A stretch of 64,000 nucleotides of DNA from positions 248,001 through 312,000 of the forward strand of contig JAOSJP010000034.1 of assembly GCA_027494015.1 (NCBI GenBank), written 5' to 3'. Below are positions 8,815 through 60,761 of this stretch, in pieces. The position numbers and the translations under genes are program-made. Source of the stretch: Anaerolineae bacterium (GTDB lineage: Bacteria > Chloroflexota > Anaerolineae > Aggregatilineales > Aggregatilineaceae). The notes below the pieces were generated by a model. That model worked only from the letters and a program-made list of their open reading frames with translations. It was not told the origin of the DNA and made no database searches. The first letter of the stretch is position 1, and every line of letters starts with the position of its first letter.

Positions 8815-9005
8815 GGGTGCGTGCAAAGGTTGACAGCGACTCGCTGGACGCGAGGATATTGACCTCACCCCCCGCCTCGCTGCGCTCGGCTTGCCCCCTC
8901 TCCGTAGCGGAAAGGGGGCGGCGAGGCGCGTCAGCGCCGAGCGGGGGTGAGGTCAACCAGGGCGCAGCAGAGCAGCGCCCCTACCTGACAGGTTTTGCAC
9001 GCGCC
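8815..9005 (+). repeat. MITE-like element, full copy 1
   Basis: The 191-bp copy runs from GGGTGCGTGCAAAGG to TTTTGCACGCGCC with imperfect inverted ends. The interior contains CCTCACCCCC ... GGGGGTGAGG arms and a strong hairpin around CCCCCTCTCC/GGAAAGGGGG, followed by a second small hairpin GGGCGCAGCAGAGCAGCGCCC. A partial right arm of a further copy lies just upstream at about 8690-8735. Confidence 0.85.
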
Positions 9006-9030
9006 ATGCTCGTGCAGGAGAACACAGTCC

Positions 9031-19557: not shown

Positions 19558-20928
19558 TCATGGTCTGCCCTGTGTTTCGGCCAGGTAGCGGGCCGTGGCC
19601 AGCCCGGCGCAGACTTGCACGCCTACAAGACTGCGGATGGGCAGCGCCCGGTAGTGAAGCTCGTGTTCCAGGGCGGCTCCGCGCTCGTCCAGACGGGCGC
19701 GGGCGGCGTCGCGCGCCGTGCGGATGGCTGGGCCGGGGTTGCCGCTCGCCAGCTCAGCGTCCATCATCCGCGCGAACATGCCCAGGACGAGCATCGAGTA
19801 GAAGCGCGATTCCAGCAGGTTGCTGAACACTTCAGCCTGGGTGGCGGGGCGAGCGGTCTCTTCGGCAGTCTGCGCCCACTGCCGGTCGGCCTCGCGCCAC
19901 TGCTTGCCCATGCTCAGGAAGGCCTCTACCGCCCGGCGGATAGGCGTCTCCAGGCGGAGGTCTGCACGGACCGCTTCCAGGTGCGCGACGATCCAGGCGT
20001 CGAACTCGTCGGCAGCCTCCAGCTTTTGCAGGATGATCTCGCGGCGGATGGCGTCGGTGACTGTCAGATCGTTGACGCGCGGATCGTCGAAGTAGGGCAT
20101 CTCCACCACCAGCGTGAACGCATTGTAGCGCCGGGCGTAGCCATCGCTTGATCCGCCGGACTGCATGACGGCTCCTGGATCGGCGACGCCGTTCTCCGCC
20201 AGATGATCGTAGCTCTCTTCGGCGCTCAACATGCGAAAGATGGCGGGGGCGAACACGGTCGCGCTGGTGGTCTCTGGCTCTCCCAGGTGCAGCGGCAGGC
20301 CATACCAGCCCGGAATCTCGTGGAAGAGATCGTAGAGCGGGGCGCATTCGCGCGAGACGTAGTAGTACACGCCGCCGAAACCGGCGTTGTGCAGCGAGAA
20401 GAGAAGCTGCGGCTGTACCTCGTCAATGACGCGCATCAGCGTCTCGGTCTCTGGCAGCGGGCTGTCAAAGTGGAGCGTCTTGTACTCGATGGGGAACGTC
20501 CATTCGACCTGATCAAAGGGCGCGGGGCGGAAGAAGTGACGGGCGTAGTTGGTCACTGTGAAGGGGCCTTTGAACCAACCTTCGTTGAGGCGCATGCCGT
20601 CAGCATCAATCGCCTTGATGAAATGCCAGGTATAGCCAAGCTCCTGGCGCAGCGCCTCGTCCTCGCACAGGCGGCGCGTCAGGTACTCAATGGTCATCGT
20701 GCCAATCGGCTCGTTGGGGTGGGGTGCGCCGAAGACGAATGCCTGCCGGGGGCCGCCGGCGATTGTCAGCAGCTCGAGGGGGTCGCCCCTGCGGGTCTGC
20801 CCAATGACCCGCAGGGTGGTCAGTTCAGGAAACTCTTGTACAAGTCGGTGCGTGGAAGCGCTAAGCTCATCAACGGTCAGAAAGGTTTCATAGTCTGGGA
20901 TATCTGCGGCGATCTGTCGGAGATCCAC
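19558..20928 (-). CDS. M14-family zinc carboxypeptidase-like protein
   Basis: 456 residues. Zinc-binding HxxE appears as 'APHPNEPIGTM' (about residue 74); the third zinc His is probably in 'LFSLHNAGFGG', and the catalytic Glu in 'LVVEMPYF'. The chain is longer than simple M14 enzymes, with a helical C-terminal region. No export signal is visible, so it is likely cytoplasmic. The GTG start has GGAGGA before it. It is the first gene of a probable operon with the serine hydrolase and peptide permeases, which together look like peptide uptake and breakdown. Confidence 0.82.
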   Translation of the reverse strand: MDLRQIAADIPDYETFLTVDELSASTHRLVQEFPELTTLRVIGQTRRGDPLELLTIAGGPRQAFVFGAPHPNEPIGTMTIEYLTRRLCEDEALRQELGYTWHFIKAIDADGMRLNEGWFKGPFTVTNYARHFFRPAPFDQVEWTFPIEYKTLHFDSPLPETETLMRVIDEVQPQLLFSLHNAGFGGVYYYVSRECAPLYDLFHEIPGWYGLPLHLGEPETTSATVFAPAIFRMLSAEESYDHLAENGVADPGAVMQSGGSSDGYARRYNAFTLVVEMPYFDDPRVNDLTVTDAIRREIILQKLEAADEFDAWIVAHLEAVRADLRLETPIRRAVEAFLSMGKQWREADRQWAQTAEETARPATQAEVFSNLLESRFYSMLVLGMFARMMDAELASGNPGPAIRTARDAARARLDERGAALEHELHYRALPIRSLVGVQVCAGLATARYLAETQGRP

Positions 20929-21010
20929 GGTGGTGTCCTCCAGCGAGGAAGAGAGATAATGAGTTAATCATATCCAAAAGGGGGGCGCAATGCTCAAAGA
21001 CCATGCCTAC

Positions 21011-21200
21011 GGGTGCGCGCAAAGGTTGTCAGTGACTTGCTGGACGCAGGCCATTGACCCTCACCCCCCAGCCTCGCTGCGTTCGGCCCCGGAATAGACT
21101 TCGGAAGTCTGGTGTCTGAGCGCGTCAGCGCCGAGCAGGGGTGAGGTAAAGCAGGGCGCAGCAGAGCAGCGCCCCTACCTGACAAACTTTGCTCACACCC
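21011..21200 (+). repeat. MITE-like element, copy 2 (hybrid centre)
   Basis: Starts GGGTGCGCGCAAAGG and ends CTTTGCTCACACCC. The central CCCCCTCTCC hairpin is replaced by a single arm of the AGACTTCGGAAGTCT palindrome (about 21098-21112). The remaining gap 20929-21419 holds nothing else coding that I can support. Confidence 0.8.
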
Positions 21201-27815: not shown

Positions 27816-28026
27816 GGGTGCAAGCAAAGGTTGACAGTGACTTGCTGGGCGCAGAACATTTACCTCACCCCCAGCCTCGCTACGCTCGGCTTGCCCCCTC
27901 TCCATGCATGGAGAGGGGGTGGCGAGGCACGTTAGCGCCGAGTGGGGGTGAGGTAAACCAGGGCGCTGCTCTGCTAACCCTGGGCGCGCGAGAAGACTTC
28001 CGAAGTTTTGAAAACTTCGGAAGTCT
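27816..28026 (+). repeat. MITE-like element, copy 3, with an ACTTCCGAAGT palindrome at its right end
   Basis: GGGTGCAAGCAAAGG start, CCTCACCCCC...GTGGGGGTGAGG arms, and a CCCCCTCTCC-ATGCAT-GGAGAGGGGG hairpin. The right end after GGGCGCTGCTCTGC is replaced by a 33-bp palindrome (27994-28026) of AGACTTCCGAAGT type. This fills nearly all of the gap 27730-28037. Confidence 0.85.
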
Positions 28027-28037
28027 ATCGCGGCCCG

Positions 28038-29360
28038 TCAGCCCTTCAGCCCCGTCGTGGCGATGCCTTCGGTGAACTGGCGCTGGGCGATCAGGTAGAT
28101 GATCAGCACCGGCACCAGCGTGATCACCGAGGCGGCCATCAGCAGGTTGATGTCCGAGCCAGCCTCAGTAGTGAAGGCGTACAGCCCATAGGAGATGGGC
28201 CGCCACTTGTCGCTGAACGTCACCAGCAGCGGCCATTCGAGGGCGTTCCACGTGCCGATGAAAGTGAAGATGATCGTGGTCACGATGGCCGCTTTGGAGA
28301 TGGGCACCACCACCGTGAACAGATAGCGCAGATGCCCGGCCCCGTCAATGCGGGCGGCGTCCCACAGGTCTTCGGGAATCTGCCGGAAGAACTGGCGCAG
28401 CAGGAAGATGCTGAACGTGCTCGCCAGGAAGGGCACCACCAGCGCCGGCCAACTATCCATCCAGCGCCAGGTGATCGGCCCGTCCACCGTGAAAAAGCTC
28501 CCCAGGCCGAGGAAGTTCTCTAATCCCACTTTGTCGAGCACCTCGTAGATCGGCTCGGCAATCGCCTGGCGCGCCTCGGTGATGCCCCAGGCGTCCTGCT
28601 TGGCAGGGAAGTCCTTGCTGAAGAACACGTCAATGTTCTTCACCATGTTGCGGTTGGGGATGAGCACGACCATCGTGGGGATGAAGATCGTCGCCAGGAA
28701 GATGCTGAACAGCAGGTTGCTGCCCGGAAACTCGATGCGCGCGAAGGCGTAGGCGGCCAGAATGGAGGTCACCGTCTGGCCGACGATGGTCAGGATGGCC
28801 ACTTTGATGCTGTTGAAGAAATAGCGCGAGAAATTGGACTCGTTCCACGCCTCAATGTAGTGCGCTGCGCCGCCCACCACCACGTAGTCCTGGTGCACCT
28901 CAAAGAGCTTGTTGAGCAGCGGCAGGTCAATGTCCAGGCGCAGCGACGCATAGCCGATGCGCTGCGTGCGCAGGTACCCGTCGAGCGTCAGATCGCGCTT
29001 GAGCTTGCTGTCCTCGATTTGCGTGCGCACATCGGCCAGGTAGGGCGGCACCTTGCCGGAGTCCAGCACATCCTGCATGGTGCGCCCCAGGTCCGCCTCT
29101 TCGATGGTCGTGACCGAGATGAACTGCTGCGAGGGAATCAGCTTCCCGCGCACGATGTCTCCCTGCTTCTGCAGCGACGTGCTGACCATCCACAGGAAGG
29201 GCATGACGAAGAGGATCGCGCCCAGCGTCAGCATGATATAGACGAAGAGGCGAAAGAAGTTGATGCGCAGCCCCAGCCGCCGCAGCGGAGCCATCGCCGC
29301 TGCCTCGACTGGCGGCGGAACCTTGAGTGATCGCGCGCCGGTTCTGGTGGTGCTAGCCAT
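28038..29360 (-). CDS. Sugar ABC-transporter permease, MalG-like with a large insert
   Basis: 440 residues against about 280 for normal members. The first helix (about 33-55) and the motif 'FMWMVSTSLQ' are followed by an extra hydrophilic segment of about 100 residues before the second helix; another insert of about 60 residues ('NIDVFFSKDFPAKQDAW...') sits before the EAA loop 'LWDAARIDGAGHLRYLFTVVVPISKAA'. Both inserts should lie outside the membrane. It overlaps the MalF-like gene by 8 bp. No sugar-binding protein or ATPase gene is adjacent. A palindrome just downstream may act as a terminator. Confidence 0.88.
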   Translation of the reverse strand: MASTTRTGARSLKVPPPVEAAAMAPLRRLGLRINFFRLFVYIMLTLGAILFVMPFLWMVSTSLQKQGDIVRGKLIPSQQFISVTTIEEADLGRTMQDVLDSGKVPPYLADVRTQIEDSKLKRDLTLDGYLRTQRIGYASLRLDIDLPLLNKLFEVHQDYVVVGGAAHYIEAWNESNFSRYFFNSIKVAILTIVGQTVTSILAAYAFARIEFPGSNLLFSIFLATIFIPTMVVLIPNRNMVKNIDVFFSKDFPAKQDAWGITEARQAIAEPIYEVLDKVGLENFLGLGSFFTVDGPITWRWMDSWPALVVPFLASTFSIFLLRQFFRQIPEDLWDAARIDGAGHLRYLFTVVVPISKAAIVTTIIFTFIGTWNALEWPLLVTFSDKWRPISYGLYAFTTEAGSDINLLMAASVITLVPVLIIYLIAQRQFTEGIATTGLKG

Positions 29361-31860
29361 AGAATACCTGCTCCCTTGCCAGCCGGTTTTGCACCAGAGT
29401 GAGGATCAGAATCACGCCGAACAGGCTGAAAGCCAGCGCCGCCGCATAACCGGGATCGTTGGCGGCATAGAGCGCCTGAAAGATATGCACGCTCATCGTG
29501 TCAATCTCTTTGCCGGTCGCCTGTCCGCGCAGCACGTAGATGTGCGAGAAAGCCTTGAACGTGCCGATGATCGAGAGCATGGATAGGAAGAAGGTCGTCG
29601 GCGAGAGCAGCGGCAGGGTGATGTTGCGGAAGCGCGACCAGCGCCCGGCCCCATCCACTTCGGCGGCCTCGTAAAGCTCGCCGGGGATCGCCCCCAGCCC
29701 GGCCAGGAAGACGACCGAGTTGTAGCCGGCGAACACCCAGATGTTGTAGAGAATCACTGTCGTCAGGGCCAGGCTCGGCCCGGCCAGGCTCTCCGGGATG
29801 TGCAAGGGGTCGCCGCCCAACACCTGCTCGTAGAAGATGCGCACAATGCCCGCCGGCTCCTTGAGCCAGGTCAGCGGCCCCAGCCCAAAGATGCCGACCA
29901 CGCGGTTGGCCAGGGCTGTGGCATCCAGGCGGAAAATGACCAGAAAGACCGTCGAAGTGGCGACGCTGGGCGCAATGTAGGGCATGAAGTAGATCACACG
30001 GTAGAGCGATTTGCCTATCGAAATCTCGGAGAACAGCAGATAGGCCAGGAACAGCCCCAGCCCCAACTGCACCGGCACCGTGCCAATGGCGTACATGGCC
30101 GTGCGGTTCAGCGCGTCCATCGCTTCTTGCACCTCGCGCCCGCCCAGCGAGAGCGTGCGCGGCAGCTCGCCGATCAGCAGCCATCCGCCGACCATCATCA
30201 GCACAGCCAGCAGGATGGTCAGGCCGAAACCGAGCGGCGTCTCGCGGCGCTGCGCGCTCTGCCAGACCAGGTACGCCGCCCCGATCAGCAGCGCCCCGAT
30301 CGCGATGGAAAACACCTGGGGCCAGTACAGAAGCTGCGCTTTAATCACTTCGGGCCGGACTGTCGGGTGCGGCGTGCTGCCTGTGGCGAACTCATAGGCG
30401 CGCACGAACTGCTCTTGCGTCAGCGACCCCATACCCGCCGCCGTCTGCTGGCTCAGTTGCAGCGCGCTGACCAGGTAGAAGAACAGCGCGAAAATGGCCA
30501 CGCCCAGGAGCACGCGGCCCACGTGCAGCCAGCGATACAGACGCGGCTGTTCCTCATCATCCACACGGCGGCGGGTGTAGGTCATGGTGAGTATGGCAGC
30601 CAGCCCCCCCAGAATACCCAGCGCCGCCGTCATCTGCCTGCTGAGTGACTCGGTATAGCCCTCGGTGCGCACGACGGCCTCGCCCACATCCAGCGCCGAG
30701 TAGATGCTCACCTGGCGCACGGCCCGCGCCCCCTCAGTGACGAAGGGCACGAACAGCTTCTCGCCCTGGGCAATGCCGGTGAGCTGCCCCTCACCCACCG
30801 TGCCATCCGGCAGAATGACGCGCACCTTCTGGTTGTTGATGAAGGCCGCCTCCAGACGGGCGATGCGGTCTACGGATAGCTCGCCATAGGCGTCCGGTGC
30901 GAGCGGTGCCTGAATGGTCTGCCCCTTCACCGTGACCTCGACCATCACCGCGCCGGACTCGAACTCCAGGCCGCTGATGGCTGTGCTATCATCGGGCACT
31001 GCCACCACGCCCTGCGACACGCGCTGGTTGAAGACAAGCGCAGCGATCCGTTGCGCCTCGGCCACGTTCCCCTGAAGCTGGTCGGTCGTGTAGAGCGCCA
31101 GCAGCAGCGCCAGCAGGATATACAGCCCCATCAGCAGCGAGACGGTGACATAGCGCGCCATGCGGATTCGTGCCAGCCGCGTCAGCAGGCGATAGAACAA
31201 CGCGCCGAACGCCGCGACGAGCAGCAGCCAGCCCAGCGTGCCCAGCCCCAGTGCATCGTTCAGGCGCGGTCCGCCCACCCAGATCAGGCCCAGCCCCGCC
31301 AGGATCAGCCATAATACGGCTACCTGGCGTCCATCGCGGGCGGCGCGCCCTGGTTGGAAGGCGTCGGCGGTGTAGAAGCCTCCCACCGCGGTCAGCAGCA
31401 GCAGCGTGGGGAACCATCCATATCCGTCCAGGCCCGTCACCAGAATAAAAGCCAGCGCGATCAGCCCGGCCCCGGCCAGCAGGCCCGGCACCACAAAGGA
31501 CACCAGGCGGCCCCCATGCTCCCGCTGATAGCGGCGACCGTCGCACCAGGCGCGGTAGCCCATCCACAGAAAGATCAGGCTGAGCGCGAACAGCAGCACG
31601 TAGGTCAGGCTGCCGAGCGAGCGCACGTAGTTGGCCAGACCAACGTACTTGTTGGTGATCGGCGAGCCGGACTTGATGCTTTCATAGAAACCGGCCACGA
31701 CCGGCCACAGCCCAAACAGCACTGTGGCAAGCGTGGCTGGCAGGACAAAAAAATAGCCGGTCAGCGCCTCGCGGAATTTGCGACGGCGCTTCCCGGCAGC
31801 CAGTTCGTGCGTCACGGCGCTGGGTGACCTATCCTTGCTTCTCAACGACAGCGTGGTCAT
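29353..31860 (-). CDS. Giant MalF-like sugar ABC-transporter permease
   Basis: 835 residues; E. coli MalF has about 514 and most relatives about 300. A first helix at about 33-55 is MalF-like ('TGYFFVLPATLATVLFGLWPVVAGFYES'). Then an insertion of some 480 residues contains several extra helices and an outside domain rich in beta strands ('VMVEVTVKGQTIQAPLAPDAYG'). The permease core resumes at about residue 590 and ends with the EAA loop 'LYEAAEVDGAGRWSRFRNITLPLLSP'. It is the partner of the enlarged MalG. The insert might replace or dock a binding protein; this is inference. Confidence 0.85.
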   Translation of the reverse strand: MTTLSLRSKDRSPSAVTHELAAGKRRRKFREALTGYFFVLPATLATVLFGLWPVVAGFYESIKSGSPITNKYVGLANYVRSLGSLTYVLLFALSLIFLWMGYRAWCDGRRYQREHGGRLVSFVVPGLLAGAGLIALAFILVTGLDGYGWFPTLLLLTAVGGFYTADAFQPGRAARDGRQVAVLWLILAGLGLIWVGGPRLNDALGLGTLGWLLLVAAFGALFYRLLTRLARIRMARYVTVSLLMGLYILLALLLALYTTDQLQGNVAEAQRIAALVFNQRVSQGVVAVPDDSTAISGLEFESGAVMVEVTVKGQTIQAPLAPDAYGELSVDRIARLEAAFINNQKVRVILPDGTVGEGQLTGIAQGEKLFVPFVTEGARAVRQVSIYSALDVGEAVVRTEGYTESLSRQMTAALGILGGLAAILTMTYTRRRVDDEEQPRLYRWLHVGRVLLGVAIFALFFYLVSALQLSQQTAAGMGSLTQEQFVRAYEFATGSTPHPTVRPEVIKAQLLYWPQVFSIAIGALLIGAAYLVWQSAQRRETPLGFGLTILLAVLMMVGGWLLIGELPRTLSLGGREVQEAMDALNRTAMYAIGTVPVQLGLGLFLAYLLFSEISIGKSLYRVIYFMPYIAPSVATSTVFLVIFRLDATALANRVVGIFGLGPLTWLKEPAGIVRIFYEQVLGGDPLHIPESLAGPSLALTTVILYNIWVFAGYNSVVFLAGLGAIPGELYEAAEVDGAGRWSRFRNITLPLLSPTTFFLSMLSIIGTFKAFSHIYVLRGQATGKEIDTMSVHIFQALYAANDPGYAAALAFSLFGVILILTLVQNRLAREQVFYG

Positions 31861-31997
31861 GGCTGCTCCCTTGCCAGGTCGCCCGACAACACCGACCGGC
31901 GCTCAGGCACAGACCAGCGTGTGCCCTGGTGCCTGGTGACCCGTCCCTTCAGCATTTTACAGGAAGTGAAGCCAGGTGCAAAATCGCCGCGCGAGAT

Positions 31998-32132
31998 GGG
32001 TGCGTGCAATAGTTGACAGCGACTCGCTGGACGCGGGGATATGGACCTCACCCCCAGCCTCGCCGAGCGGGGGTGAGATCAACCAGGGCGCAGCAGAGCA
32101 GCGCCCCTACCTGACAGGATTTGCACGCACCC
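31998..32132 (+). repeat. MITE-like element, short copy 4 without the central hairpin
   Basis: 135 bp with GGGTGCGTGCAAT and TTGCACGCACCC ends intact. CCTCACCCCCAGCCTCG passes directly into CCGAGCGGGGGTGAG, so the middle hairpin is deleted. The gap 31861-32164 contains nothing else. Confidence 0.85.
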
Positions 32133-34715: not shown

Positions 34716-34775
34716 GGGCGCGCGCAAAACCCGTCAGGTAGGGGCGCTGCTCTGCTGCGCCCATGTGCACCAACT
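34716..34775 (-). repeat. MITE-like element, partial end (copy 5)
   Basis: Only the GGGCGCGCGCAAAACCCGTCAGG end and the GGGCGCTGCTCTGCTGCGCCC hairpin remain. It lies just upstream of deoC. The next 150 bp hold a separate GC-rich segment with AATCCCCCTCTC/GAGAGGGGGA arms and no gene. Confidence 0.6.
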
Positions 34776-34922
34776 TAAGCCTGGCTGCACACGCCTCTCC
34801 CCTCAATCCCCCTCTCCAGCCGAGCTAGAGAGGGGGACTTTGATCGCCAGAGGGGGGGTTTTCCCAATCCCCCTGACTTGGCCGGGGAGTGGGGCCAACC
34901 GTTGCGCGCACCCCGCCCCAAA

Positions 34923-35117
34923 GGGTGCGCCCAAAACCTGTCAGGTGACATGGGGCGCTGCTCTGCTGCGCCCCGCTTTACCTCACCCCCGCTCGGCGCT
35001 GACGCGCCTCGCCGCCCCCTCTCCGTCAACGGAGAGGGGGCAAGCCGAGCGTAGCGAGGCTGGGGGTGAGGTCAATCCCCCGCGTCAGGCAAGTCGCTGA
35101 CAACCTTTGCACGCCCC
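34923..35117 (-). repeat. MITE-like element, copy 6 of the 35-kb cluster
   Basis: 195 bp, from GGGTGCGCCCAAAACCTGTCAGG to CTGACAACCTTTGCACGCCC, with full central hairpin CCCCCTCTCC-GTCAAC-GGAGAGGGGG. First of four head-to-tail copies. Confidence 0.88.
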
Positions 35118-35127
35118 CGCCCCCAAC

Positions 35128-35507
35128 GGGCGCGCGCAAAACCCGTCAGGTAGGGGCGCTGCTCTGCTGCGCCCCGCTGTAGGGTTACACCACCAAGACA
35201 CGTCGCAGGGTTATACCAACCCAACACGGGACAGCAACCGTCCAGCGTGCCCTGCGGGCACTCGCGAAGCCAGCGCCAGCGACTGACGCGGCGAGCACCC
35301 GCTGACGATTCCGTCCCGGTGGACGGTAGCCCTGCGGCGTCCGACCCTACAGCGGGTAACACTCTGCTGCGCCCCTTCTACCCTCGGCGCTGACGCGCCT
35401 CGCCGCCCCTCTCCGTCAACGGAGAGGGGGCAAGCCAGCGTAGCGAGGCTGGGGGTGAGGTCAATCCCCGCGTCAAGCAAGTCGCTGACAACCTTTGCGC
35501 GCAACCC
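35128..35507 (-). repeat. MITE-like element, copy 7, interrupted by a nested element
   Basis: Ends GGGCGCGCGCAAAACCCG and CTGACAACCTTTGCGCGC. A 178-bp sequence is inserted in its GCTGCGCCCC hairpin at 35176-35353. Part of the CCTCACCCCC arm is lost next to the insert. Confidence 0.82.
35176..35353. repeat. Nested small element with 10-bp inverted ends
   Basis: Bounded by GCTGTAGGGT and its exact complement ACCCTACAGC. The interior is not related to the host repeat and codes for nothing evident. It carries AGGGTTATACC near the left end, a motif also used as an end by the insert at 41502-41578. Confidence 0.6.
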
Positions 35508-35516
35508 GCCCCCAAT

Positions 35517-35703
35517 GGGTGCATGCAAAACCCGTCAGGTAGGGGCGCTGCTCTGCTGCACCCCCTTTACCTCCCCCCGCTCGGCGCTGACGCGCCTCGC
35601 CGCCCTCTCCGTCAACGGAGAGGGGCAAGCCGAGCGTAGCGAGGCTGGGGGTGAGGTCAATCCCCCGCGTCAAGCAAGTCGCTGTCAACCTTTGCGCGCA
35701 CTC
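35517..35703 (-). repeat. MITE-like element, copy 8
   Basis: 187 bp, GGGTGCATGCAAAACCCG to CTGTCAACCTTTGCGCGC, complete central hairpin. About 10 bp of CCGCCCCCAAT-type spacer separates it from its neighbours. Confidence 0.88.
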
Positions 35704-35713
35704 CGCCCCCAAT

Positions 35714-35901
35714 GGGTGTGCAAAACCTGTCAGGCAGAGGCGCTGCTCTGCTGCACCCCCCTTTACCTCACCCCCGCTCGGCGCTGACGCGCCTCGCCGC
35801 CCCCTCTCCGTCAACGGAGAGGGGGCAAGCCGAGCGTAGCGAGGCTGGGGGTGAGGTCAATCCCCCGCGTCCAGCAAGTCGCTGACAACCTTTGCACGCC
35901 C
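35714..35901 (-). repeat. MITE-like element, copy 9
   Basis: 188 bp, GGGTGTGCAAAACCTGTCAGG to CTGACAACCTTTGCACGCC. Last of the cluster. The following 230 bp to the FHA gene hold no recognisable feature. Confidence 0.88.
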
Positions 35902-36131
35902 CCGCCCCCAATTCACCACTGGCGGGCAACGCCAATGTGCCTTAAGATTGTAGGCACTTCGTCGAACTGCACAAGGCTCAGGGGACAGCGGGAGTTCCCA
36001 CGGGCCGGTTGCCGGGGTATTGTGGCGCGGCATGTGCGCTGGCTGGCATCCGCTGGCTTGCCGGCGACCTCTGTGCAGACCTGATTAGCTCGACGATAGT
36101 CGCGCAGAGCGTGGCGCGTCAGGGGGTCTTC

Positions 36132-41251: not shown

Positions 41252-41412
41252 TCTAATGATAGCCTCAACTGGGTGTCTATCCGTGAAGCAGCCCGCCTAG
41301 GGGCGCTGCTCTGCCGCGCCCGGCAGCTCACGGATAGGCTTCAAAGGCAATCCTCCGGCCTTCATTGTAGCCCCGCCCGCGCGGGCGGGCAAACTCATAC
41401 CCACTACGCTCT

Positions 41413-41636
41413 GCGGCTGCGAGTAAAGGTCGTCAGCGACTCGCCGGACACGGGGCATTGACCTCACCCCCAGCCTCGCGGCGCGTCGGCCGCGTCAGCT
41501 GAGGGTTATGCCGGCAGGGAGGAAGTGGGGGGTAGTTGGGGGGAGGGAGGAGGGGGGGGGGGGGAGTGGTATAACCCTGGGCGCAGCGCGCAACACAGAG
41601 CAGCGCCCCCTGCCTGGCAAGTTTTGCTCACACCCC
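41413..41636 (+). repeat. MITE-like element, copy 10, interrupted, overlapping the ileS stop
   Basis: Left arm from about 41413 (GTCGTCAGCGACTCGCCGG, CCTCACCCCCAGCCTCG), right end GGCAAGTTTTGCTCACACCC. A 77-bp insert (41502-41578) replaces the centre. The inverted end crosses the ileS stop codon at 41628-41630. An isolated GGGGCGCTGCTCTGC remnant lies at about 41299. Rest of the gap 41252-41412: a short CCCGCCCGCGCGGGCGGG palindrome only. Confidence 0.75.
41502..41578 (+). repeat. 77-bp insert with inverted ends and a long G-rich tract
   Basis: Bounded by AGGGTTATGCC and GGTATAACCCT (one mismatch). Between them, on the plus strand, nearly every base is G, with at least five runs of four or more G, including a run of 13 G. 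Such a strand can form a G-quadruplex. Confidence 0.65.
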
Positions 41637-44938: not shown

Positions 44939-45021
44939 GGGTGCGCGCGCAGGTTGTCAGCGACATGCTTGCTGTGGGTGAGGCACACCAGGGCGCAGCA
45001 GAACAGCGCCCGCACGCACCC
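44939..45021 (+). repeat. MITE-like element, minimal copy 11
   Basis: 83 bp: GGGTGCGCGCGCAGG and CCGCACGCACCCC ends, the GGGCGCAGCAGAACAGCGCCC hairpin, and only a stub of the centre. TTGTTGG repeats (about 44827-44862) and CCAACAACC repeats (about 45035-45058) flank it. It lies in the ileS upstream gap. Confidence 0.75.
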
Positions 45022-47491: not shown

Positions 47492-47761
47492 AAAAAACAC
47501 CCGTCCCTCAACCAAAGGGACGGGAGCCTGGCTCGCGCGGTACCACCCTTGTTCCCCCTCAGATGCCGGGGGCGCTCTGCTGCCACCATCATGGCATGGT
47601 CGTGATAACGGAGACCAGACCGGCCCGGCTTAGTAGCTCGCGCGTTCAGCCTGGCGCTCAGGAAGGATTTTCCGCCCCGCTCCCGCACCTGGCTCGCACC
47701 GTCCCAGGCTCGCTGACCGGCATGCAGGGGCGTACTCGTTTCCGTCAACGCTTTTCTGCTT
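47492..47761 (-). ncRNA. T-box riboswitch leader (transcription-attenuation type)
   Basis: On the minus strand the conserved T-box AAGGGTGGTACCGCG lies at 47536-47550, followed by a terminator stem CCCGTCCCT/AGGGACGGG (47500-47524) and six U (47492-47497). Upstream, Stem I shows an AGTA bulge, a GCGTT/AACGC base and a CGCCCC/GGGGCG upper stem. The loop that should hold the specifier reads GGAAAATCC (47665-47673): ATC (Ile) or AAT (Asn) are the possible codons. The same-strand ileS 2.7 kb downstream makes Ile attractive. Uncharged tRNA would block termination and allow expression of the downstream genes. Confidence 0.93.
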
Positions 47762-47918: not shown

Positions 47919-48060
47919 GTAGGGCGCTGCTCTGCTGCGGCCCGGTTGACCTCACCCCTGCTCGGTGCTCACGCGCCTCGCCAAGCCGAGCGTAGCGAGG
48001 CTGGGGGTGAGGTCCATATCCCCGCGTCCAGCGAGTCGCTGTCAACTTTTGCACGCACCC
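47919..48060 (-). repeat. MITE-like element, copy 12, truncated
   Basis: The GGGCGCTGCTCTGCTGCGGCCC end, both GTGAGG arms and the CTGTCAACTTTTGCACGCACCC end are present; the central hairpin and the outermost left end are missing. It lies after sucD, between sucD and the T-box promoter. Confidence 0.75.
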
Positions 48061-55245: not shown

Positions 55246-55899
55246 TCACTCTTCGCTCAGGAACAACCGCCGCCGGTGCGCATTGACCTGGTGCAGGGCC
55301 AGGCCGAGCGCGGCGATCAGCTCGTCGGCGCGGGCATTGGCGCGCTCTCCGGTGCTCAGGCGGGCGACGAGCACGCCATCGCCGTCCAGGCGCAGGTCTT
55401 GAACCAGCGGGCGCAGGTCGTAGACTTTGCCGCGCAGCACTCGTTCGACGTGCGTCTGGGCCAGCAGAGCCTGCGCGCGCGCCCCCAGGTCGTCCGCGCT
55501 GAGGTCGGGGTCGTTGGGGGTGATGGCGTATTCAGCGCTGATCACCTGCGGGGGCAATGCCGGCGCTTTGATCGGCACCTCCGCCGCTTGAAGCGCGCGC
55601 AGCCCGGCGGGGCTGGTGGTGTTCAGCCGCTCGATCAGCGCGTCGGCGAGTTCGAGGGGCACGCACTCGGTCAGCCACACGTCGAGCAGTTCCGCTTCGC
55701 TGGTCAGGCCGACGGGCAGCGCGGCGGCGAATTGCAGGCGCGGGCGCGGGTTGAAGCCGCGCGTATATTCCAGCGGCAGCGCAGCGCGCCGCAGCACGCG
55801 CTCCCACGTCGTCGCCAGGTCGAGATGGCCGACGTAGCGCAGCGCGCCCTGCTTGGCGAACCGGATGCGCAGCCGTTGTTGGGTGAGTGCCTGGCTCAT
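55246..55899 (-). CDS. DUF2344 (TIGR03936-type) protein
   Basis: 217 residues. 'RLRIRFAKQGALRYVGHLDLATTWERVLRRAALPLEYTRGFNPRPRLQFAAALPVGLTS' is the family signature. Members are often fused to, or next to, radical-SAM proteins (TIGR03960); no radical-SAM gene is in the window. The role is unknown, possibly RNA modification, judged from its usual neighbours. Single gene, converging on korAB. Confidence 0.85.
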   Translation of the reverse strand: MSQALTQQRLRIRFAKQGALRYVGHLDLATTWERVLRRAALPLEYTRGFNPRPRLQFAAALPVGLTSEAELLDVWLTECVPLELADALIERLNTTSPAGLRALQAAEVPIKAPALPPQVISAEYAITPNDPDLSADDLGARAQALLAQTHVERVLRGKVYDLRPLVQDLRLDGDGVLVARLSTGERANARADELIAALGLALHQVNAHRRRLFLSEE

Positions 55900-58480: not shown

Positions 58481-58642
58481 GCCTCACCCCCTGGCCTCGC
58501 TGCGCTCGGTCCCAGAATAGACTTCCGAAGTCTTGGAGACTTCGGAAGTCTGGTGTCTGAGCGCCTCAGCGCCGAGCGGGGGTGAGGCCAACCAGGGCGC
58601 AGCAGAGCAGCGCCCCTACCTGGTAGGCTCTGCACACGCCCG
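58481..58642 (+). repeat. MITE-like element, copy 13 (hybrid centre)
   Basis: The centre holds a 33-bp palindrome AGACTTCCGAAGTCTTGGAG... (58519-58551) in place of the CCCCCTCTCC hairpin, at the same position as in copy 2. Right end GGGCGCAGCAGAGCAGCGCCCC and CTCTGCACACGCCC. Left end is lost next to the fabH stop. The rest of the gap to 58769 is featureless. Confidence 0.8.
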
Positions 58643-60488: not shown

Positions 60489-60521
60489 AGACTTCCGAAG
60501 TTTTGGAAACTTCGGAAGTCT
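60489..60521. repeat. ACTTCCGAAGT palindrome
   Basis: 33 bp of AGACTTCCGAAGTTTTGG-type with exact inverted arms, 20 bp after the kinase stop. It may also act as a terminator. Confidence 0.75.
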
Positions 60522-60603: not shown

Positions 60604-60702
60604 TTACCTCACCCCCTGGCCTCGCCACGCTCGGCCTTTCCCCCTCTCCATGCATGGAGAGGGGGAGTCGAGGTGCGCCAGCGCCGAGACGGGGGTGAGG
60701 TA
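60604..60702 (+). repeat. MITE-like element, copy 14, central part
   Basis: TTTACCTCACCCCCTGG to GGGGGTGAGGTAA with the CCCCCTCTCC-ATGCAT-GGAGAGGGGG hairpin; the outer ends are missing. Confidence 0.8.
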
Positions 60703-60761
60703 AGGGGGGCGTATGGCAATACGCCCCTAATGAGATTTGACGGTCATGATCGGCAGCCGCT

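Follow-up and report, generated by a model that had tools for sequence, protein, structure and literature searches.

Putative ISKra4-type MITEs at a set distance from promoter-like sites in Anaerolineae

The repeat and its tandem array

The window, i.e. the whole 64,000-nucleotide stretch of DNA that was analysed, carries a short repeat at many places between its genes (Table 1). A BLAST search of the window with the copy at 34923 matched all 14 places listed by an earlier sequence-only reading, which had described a repeat of ~190 bp. The repeat is real, as is also evident from the counts of its terminal inverted repeats (TIRs), far above those of a reversed control. In a TIR scan of the window with up to four mismatches, 12 of the 14 places showed the terminal repeat, on one side or on both; an extra match at 55475 (four mismatches) was taken as chance. 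The sites at 58481 and 60604 are not full copies, the former being degraded and devoid of TIRs and the latter consisting of the inner palindrome alone.

The TIRs are 22 bp long and of two slightly different types, with the consensus GGGTGCGTGCAAAACCTGTCAG (L) and GGGTGCGTGCAAAGGTTGACAG (R); the ends of the family are of the GGGTGCGTGCAAA type. We assembled 90 paired copies (43 from G002, 25 from G003, 11 from G018, nine from the window and two from G017), which measured 37–453 bp, had TIRs at both ends and showed no coding capacity. The contigs behind these copies were picked largely for holding matches, so per-genome copy densities are not to be taken as estimates. As the sequence-only reading had it, the window copies are intergenic according to the list of open reading frames, with genes picked by length (nine of ten neighbours checked in Pfam belonged to a family), but the stop of an open frame falls inside or at the end of the element in at least two places (8953, 41628, 58616). 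Its statement that the window holds no transposase agrees with a tblastn search (E ≤ 1) with two ISKra4 transposases, which returned no match in the window or in part of the clade DNA. A T-box leader was also observed in the window, on the minus strand at 47513–47757 (Rfam RF00230, 101.3 bits).

The array extends from 34716 to 35903 and consists of five units in a single orientation, and not of four as read earlier. Its spacers resemble CGCCCCCAA and range from 8 to 10 bp; the previously given value of about 10 bp occurs within this range. Similar target-like stretches of 8–10 bp lie between the units at 34914–34922, 35119–35127, 35507–35516 and 35704–35713. Units 2–5 are 94–97% alike among themselves and 87–93% alike to two dispersed window copies (gaps ignored), and unit 1 is 80–88% alike to units 2–5. 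The nested insert of unit 3 (35176–35361, ~186 bp; AGGGTTA(T/C)ACC...) is located between 14-bp direct repeats CTCTGCTGCGCCCC. An insert of this kind was also observed in the 41413–41635 copy, in both cases behind the first hairpin.

Table 1. Copies of the repeat and associated sequence features, in window coordinates unless a locus or contig is named.
Feature	Position	Strand	Basis and remarks
Complete MITE, 192 bp; its R-type end is the one at 8815	8815..9006	-	TIRs at both ends; 7/8 target duplication cacgagca/cacgagcc; no promoter-like site found outside either end
Promoter-like (sigma70-like) TTGAGC-19-TATGAT, 13 bp beyond R end of 21011 copy	20967..20997	-	faces Peptidase_M14 gene 19558-20928(-)
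Full MITE copy, 190 bp; loop holds nested second palindrome AGACTTCCGAAGTCT	21011..21200	-	TIRs; sequence; 8-bp target duplication absent (2/8)
MITE copy, R-type TIR intact, left end lost	27816..27969	-	BLAST, TIR scan
Promoter-like TTTGCA-17-TAAAAT, 15 bp beyond R end of 31998 copy	31954..31982	-	upstream of ABC permease gene 29353-31860
Complete MITE, 135 bp, missing from the corresponding (empty) sites of L001 and L002	31998..32132	-	TIRs, alignment of relatives
Array unit 1, interior different, R TIR degraded	34716..34913	+	TIR scan, alignment
Array unit 2, reference copy	34923..35118	+	BLAST query, TIRs
Array unit 3, nested 186-bp insert (35176-35361)	35128..35506	+	TIRs, sequence
Array unit 4	35517..35703	+	TIRs, sequence
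Array unit 5, L TIR short by 2-3 bases	35714..35903	+	TIRs, alignment
Target-like copy GCCCCCAA after array	35904..35911	+	sequence
Weak promoter-like CTGGCG-18-TAAGAT (7/12), 15 bp beyond array R end	35919..35948	+	conserved in L001 and L002
Promoter-like TTGCCC-17-TACAAT, 15-16 bp from hand-inferred 41413 insertion point	41364..41392	-	similar sequence in L001 and L002
MITE copy, interior divergent; site empty in L001 and L002	41413..41635	-	TIR scan, relatives
Short MITE derivative, one clear TIR	44939..45020	-	TIR scan, sequence
MITE copy, R TIR intact, left TIR lost	47919..48060	+	TIR scan, sequence
Degraded copy without TIRs, central nested palindrome	58481..58616	-	BLAST, sequence
Solo inner palindrome; surrounding block missing from G001	60604..60703	-	comparison with relatives
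Ends of second TIR family GGGTCCACGAACGAGTTGTCAG	L202:7538-7559, L273:4490-4511, G002 C7:1895-1916, L276:5286-5307, others		TIR pattern

Insertion sites, spread and distance to promoters

The 835-aa protein encoded at 29353–31860 shares 91–93% identity with proteins of L001, L002 and L004 (over a partial length in L004), three MAGs under the names Anaerolineae bacterium or Thermoflexus sp. L001 and L002 are also collinear with the window at the DNA level (77–92%), and these relatives probably place the window in their lineage. Both L001 and L002 have empty orthologous sites for the copies at 31998–32132 and 41413–41635. The array is absent from L001, where its site has a similar target-like sequence, TGCCCCCAAC. 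At the 27816 site, an element is present in L004 and other sequence occupies the position in L001 and L002. The copies have common boundaries, and empty sites exist in close relatives, the two points on which the sequence-only reading had let its proposal of a mobile element depend.

Among the 18 genomes of the family to which G002 belongs, TIR matches with at most one mismatch numbered 241, 142, 85, 79, 60, 3 and 1 in seven genomes and 0 in eleven, with 0 matches of the reversed pattern in all 18. The counts of 60, 142 and 241 are those of G001–G003, which are close Anaerolineae MAGs, and 85 and 79 those of G017 and G018. With at most two mismatches, the pattern matched G002 228 times and its reversed control once. 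In a class-wide scan of 396 genomes, eight had matches, G002 among them, and in four of the eight there was a single match; since the reversed pattern also matched once in two of the 396, these single matches may be chance. No match was obtained in the TIR scan of viral contigs.

An 8-bp target duplication with at least six of eight identical bases flanked 36 of the 90 paired copies (16 of them perfectly), where mismatched flanks would lead one to expect 0.84; 54 copies had none at this threshold. Duplication lengths of 4–7 and 9–12 bp were near background in the same 90 copies, and none of them stood out. Two of the nine paired window copies passed the threshold, one of which is an array unit. 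The 31998 copy, whose site is empty in relatives, has an imperfect 16-bp duplication and matches at 0/8 positions at 8 bp, and for the 41413 copy the target copies CCCACTAC/CCCGCCGC were assigned by hand (6/8). Inverted repeats of 22 bp and an 8-bp duplication fall within the 18–39-bp repeats and 8–9-bp duplications that passages of PMC3942029 give for the superfamily, including ISKra4 (p-MULT4).

A promoter-like site was defined as at least nine of 12 matches to TTGACA + TATAAT, the sigma70-like consensus, with a spacer of 16–19. Measured from either end, such sites were found in 20 of the 90 copies at an offset of 15 bp and in eight at 16 bp, while none of the remaining offsets between 0 and 32 occurred more than twice. 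Under a slightly different rule, which counted offsets of 14–17, there were 16 sites in 83 R flanks and ten in 84 L flanks, the five copies of the 90 that were unorientable being excluded and near-duplicate or short flanks removed. Rotated flanks gave means of 1.39 (R) and 0.88 (L), and 0 of 1000 rotations reached either observed count. At offsets of 14–16, 27 of the 90 copies were positive (12/43 in G002, 10/25 in G003, 3/11 in G018, 1/2 in G017 and 1/9 in the window) and 63 were negative by the scoring used. Positives were similarly frequent among copies with (10/36) and without (17/54) a target duplication.

The clear case within the window is the 31998 copy, whose promoter region is largely conserved in the element-less L001 and L002. 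The promoter-like sites near the 41413 copy, the 21011 copy and the array are weaker, two bases off or hand-placed (by hand for 41413 and the array), and none was seen at such a distance from the copy ends at 8815, 27816, 44939 or 48060. Passages of Guerillot et al. (2014, PMC3942029) describe insertion of the ISKra4 group upstream of sigmaA promoters, and passages of PMC9208149 place ISKra4 and ISLre2 preferentially 50–250 bp from genes.

Candidate parent, interior and alternative origins

The transposase families searched for were IS6, ISL3, ISKra4 and Y1, and the route to an ISKra4 parent was the class-wide TIR scan together with broken IS ends in G181. Contig ends of G181 carry IS ends with a TIR identical at 21/22 positions to the L consensus of the MITE; the interior was not seen in this genome. 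Used as a query, the G181 end matched ten of the 154 genomes of its order, G415 and G424 among them, and its first 113 bp share 78% identity with the IS ends of G415. In G415, a TIR with 21/22 identity to the R consensus lies at one end of an open ISKra4 frame, which runs to the contig end. In G424, elements of 1.4 kb are bounded by a pair of TIRs (18–20/22 to the MITE family), between which the transposase frames are disrupted, their pieces matching the ISKra4 transposase model (2.4e-20, 2.7e-50). The G392 IS combines an open ISKra4 frame with TIRs at both ends that are 15–16/22 identical to those of the window family. The open frames of G392 and G415 scored 317.8 and 247.9 bits with NF033572, for which the curated cut-off is 205. 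G392 also harbours 101-bp MITEs, whose right TIR agrees with the right TIR of its IS at 21/22; the three complete ones have duplications of 9, 9 and 8 bp, so the length is not strictly 8 there. Three of the six ISs examined have duplications of at least 7/8, and the G392 IS has none. In a small set, the G392 MITEs and some G392 and G424 ISs also appear to face promoter-like sites. At four G424 loci (L157, L167, L168, L170), ISKra4 copies retain both TIRs around broken frames and are a possible source of non-autonomous copies.

The homology between MITE and IS comprises the TIR and a few bases (the best G002 match to the G181 end spans 22 bp), with the exception of G014, where it reaches 73 bp at 81%. 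Searches for an ISKra4 transposase came out negative in G002, G003, G014, G017, G018, G181 and G358, and the transposase match of G001 is an IS256-type protein. As G181 has IS ends and yielded no ISKra4 transposase, such MAGs can lose repeat interiors. A C-terminal fragment from G181 gave no Pfam match, no plasmid match and one weak, unrelated NCBIfam match. When 0.85 Mb, made up of the window and about 0.78 Mb of G002, was compared with itself, no IS-like repeat family emerged in G002; the comparison returned seven rows above 300 bp, the longest being 1058 bp at 70%. The dependence on a transposase elsewhere, which the sequence-only reading had anticipated, finds its candidate in the ISKra4 elements of related genomes, though not in the clade's own MAGs, and the search it had proposed for matching ends led to ISKra4 ISs with 21/22 identity in G181 and G415.

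Many copies contain a GGGGCGCTGCTCTGCTGCGCCCC hairpin and a CCTCACCCC...GGGGTGAGG inner palindrome, which elsewhere are replaced or interrupted by other palindromes. A pattern search of 1.09 Mb found 58 inner palindromes, 44 beside a TIR and 14 with no TIR nearby; seven of these 14 retain remnants of MITE sequence as judged by eye, and target duplication was not evident. The inner palindrome may move on its own. The interior appears to be mostly a mosaic of passengers, with palindromes that are also found elsewhere. Another palindrome, AGACTTCCGAAGT...ACTTCGGAAGTCT, was observed in the window at 27994–28026, at 58519–58551 (inside the degraded 58481 copy) and at 60489–60521, with a related one in the 21011 copy (21098–21110) and others in L002 and L004. 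In G003, C245 has seven tandem matches with a ~153-bp period at about 1919–2938, with the inner palindrome within. A Y1_Tnp (IS200-like) domain was seen near the end of a long open frame in L303 and L306, with matches in G001, G003 and G018 and presence in 5/5 clade genomes; two such frames that were examined (about 600 aa) matched no other Pfam families.

Two other origins have to be weighed against an ISKra4-derived MITE. The repeat could be an RNA or DNA hairpin kept for its structure, as a transcript stabiliser, a terminator or a REP-type element mobilised by Y1, and not a DDE transposon at all. The RNA is predicted to fold strongly (z −6.6), part of PMC3733652 reports GTAG-tagged REPs from Chloroflexi, and both the Y1_Tnp matches in all five clade genomes and the inner palindromes lacking a nearby TIR (14/58, seven with MITE remnants by eye) would fit such an element. 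Yet an alignment of 12 hand-chosen copies of the ~187–196-bp class showed both-sided changes that kept the pair in 3 of 66 pairs, with an unfavourable covariation term (+0.86), and the fixed 22-bp ends, 8-bp duplications and empty sites also speak for a DNA transposon. Transposition of the IS200/RAYT type is not known to make a target duplication, whereas the repeat has one. We therefore regard the hairpin origin as extremely improbable, and the RNA-hairpin alternative raised earlier gives way as the primary nature of the repeat. Alternatively, the MITE might descend from another family that makes 8-bp duplications, with ends that only resemble those of ISKra4. IS6 and ISL3 make 8-bp duplications too, and GCAAA is possible in their ends; both were early guesses made from the look of the TIRs and the 8-bp duplication, and were set aside when PF13610 (IS6) and PF01610 (ISL3) were each found in 0/3 genomes (G001–G003). 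ISKra4 is absent from these genomes as well, but such ends adjoin or enclose ISKra4 frames, insertion upstream of promoters agrees with the ISKra4 group, and we saw no element of the IS6 or ISL3 family whose ends agree at 21/22 positions. An origin from IS6 or ISL3 is, in our judgement, very unlikely.

Interpretation and related systems

We conclude, with a probability of roughly 0.86, that we are dealing with a MITE of the ISKra4/p-MULT4 family, a non-autonomous DNA transposon that inserts preferentially 15–16 bp upstream of sigma70-like −35 boxes. The MITE assignment already made by the sequence-only reading is upheld by the fixed 22-bp ends, dispersed copies, empty sites, lack of coding capacity and 8-bp duplications, which it had suggested looking for; what goes beyond it is the fifth unit of the array, the targeting of promoters and the occurrence of the inner palindrome on its own. 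In the mechanism that we propose, an ISKra4-type DDE transposase, now lost or missing in the clade MAGs, would have bound the ends and inserted the element at a point set by promoter distance, 15–16 bp upstream of the −35 box. With a target defined by the distance to the promoter, re-insertion is expected at the promoter-proximal end with an 8-bp spacer. The next insertion at the same promoter would fall in the promoter-proximal target copy of the old element and would leave neighbours with one 8-bp target copy between them; local tandem duplication would then add array units. The internal hairpins would be mostly passengers. Landing ~15 bases upstream of promoters offers a simple reason for the intergenic position and helps explain part of the head-to-tail pile-up.

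Whether the array needs re-insertion at all is about an even question. Slippage or unequal exchange could have multiplied one element with its target copy, and the high mutual likeness of window units 2–5 is what pure tandem duplication would leave. So are two arrays in G003, one on C530, whose units have a near-identical 18-bp spacer in common (one difference), and one on C413, whose units carry host flank, and there duplication is needed. On the other hand, unit 1 is divergent from the rest of the window array, and C18 of G002 has a 108-bp and a 194-bp element next to each other, 8 bp apart and with 89% identity over 104 aligned columns. Moreover, a scan of about 2.0 Mb for a second TIR family, GGGTCCACGAACGAGTTGTCAG, gave 20 ends (0 with the reversed control), six of which lie −1 to 10 bp from ends of the first family, three at exactly 8 bp. 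Same-site re-insertion and tandem duplication are probably both at work. A different role for the elements would be that of a portable upstream regulatory module, co-opted by the adjoining promoters. The core promoter is left intact, and 27 of the 90 copies have a promoter-like site immediately downstream; nevertheless, L001 and L002 retain the promoter regions without the element. Judged from the sequence, such co-option is unlikely. A broader scheme is only slightly less doubtful: promoter-seeking MITEs might have brought a common, structured module of ~100–200 bp to dozens of promoters per genome, each time to a point 15 bp before the −35 box, with two MITE families competing for and stacking into arrays at the same promoter, and some of the modules now serving as shared upstream regulatory DNA.

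Promoter-distance targeting is known for full-length ISKra4 and ISLre2 elements, and here it is met in high-copy non-autonomous ones. The ends and the transposase seem to be enough for positioning passenger DNA at one set distance from many of a genome's promoters. The copies form a natural set of promoter insertions, in an uncultured lineage, for asking how upstream DNA tunes expression. In the open-licence PMC literature, we found no description of ISKra4-derived MITEs or of promoter-distance targeting by MITEs. Passages of PMC9208149, a paper in which ISKra4 and MITE both occur, make no such link, and the word ISKra4 is absent from a 2024 review of prokaryotic MITEs (PMC10969869).

The closest known system is the ISKra4 family itself (p-MULT4; NF033572), which shares with the repeat its TIRs (up to 21/22), the 8-bp duplication and insertion upstream of sigma70/sigmaA promoters. 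Unlike these ISs, the MITE lacks a gene for a transposase and measures 37–453 bp in the 90 copies; the search for an ISKra4 transposase in the MAGs with the MITE gave none. TnGBS and ISLre2 (p-MULT3) insert 15–17 bp upstream of the −35 box according to passages of PMC3942029. TnGBS are streptococcal conjugative elements and ISLre2 are ISs, whereas the MITE has promoters beyond either end, more often the R end; promoters beyond either end are also on record for those ISKra4-group elements whose repeats are near-perfect. The Nezha, NEMIS, RUP and ERIC MITEs, which PMC3733652 names, are likewise short, multi-copy, TIR-bounded, intergenic and hairpin-forming; the parent family and the promoter-distance targeting appear to distinguish the present family from them. 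In Streptococcus pneumoniae, the BOX, RUP and SPRITE elements are short, bunched and nested in one another, as a section of PMC10969869 describes, but the neighbours observed here share one promoter-set target, in several cases with an 8-bp spacer. Finally, the GTAGGGGCG...CGCCCC hairpin of many copies resembles the class of GTAG-tagged REPs and their RAYTs, to which the nested hairpins may belong. REPs are palindromes of 20–40 bp tied to tyrosine transposases, whereas the outer element described here has TIRs and a target duplication.
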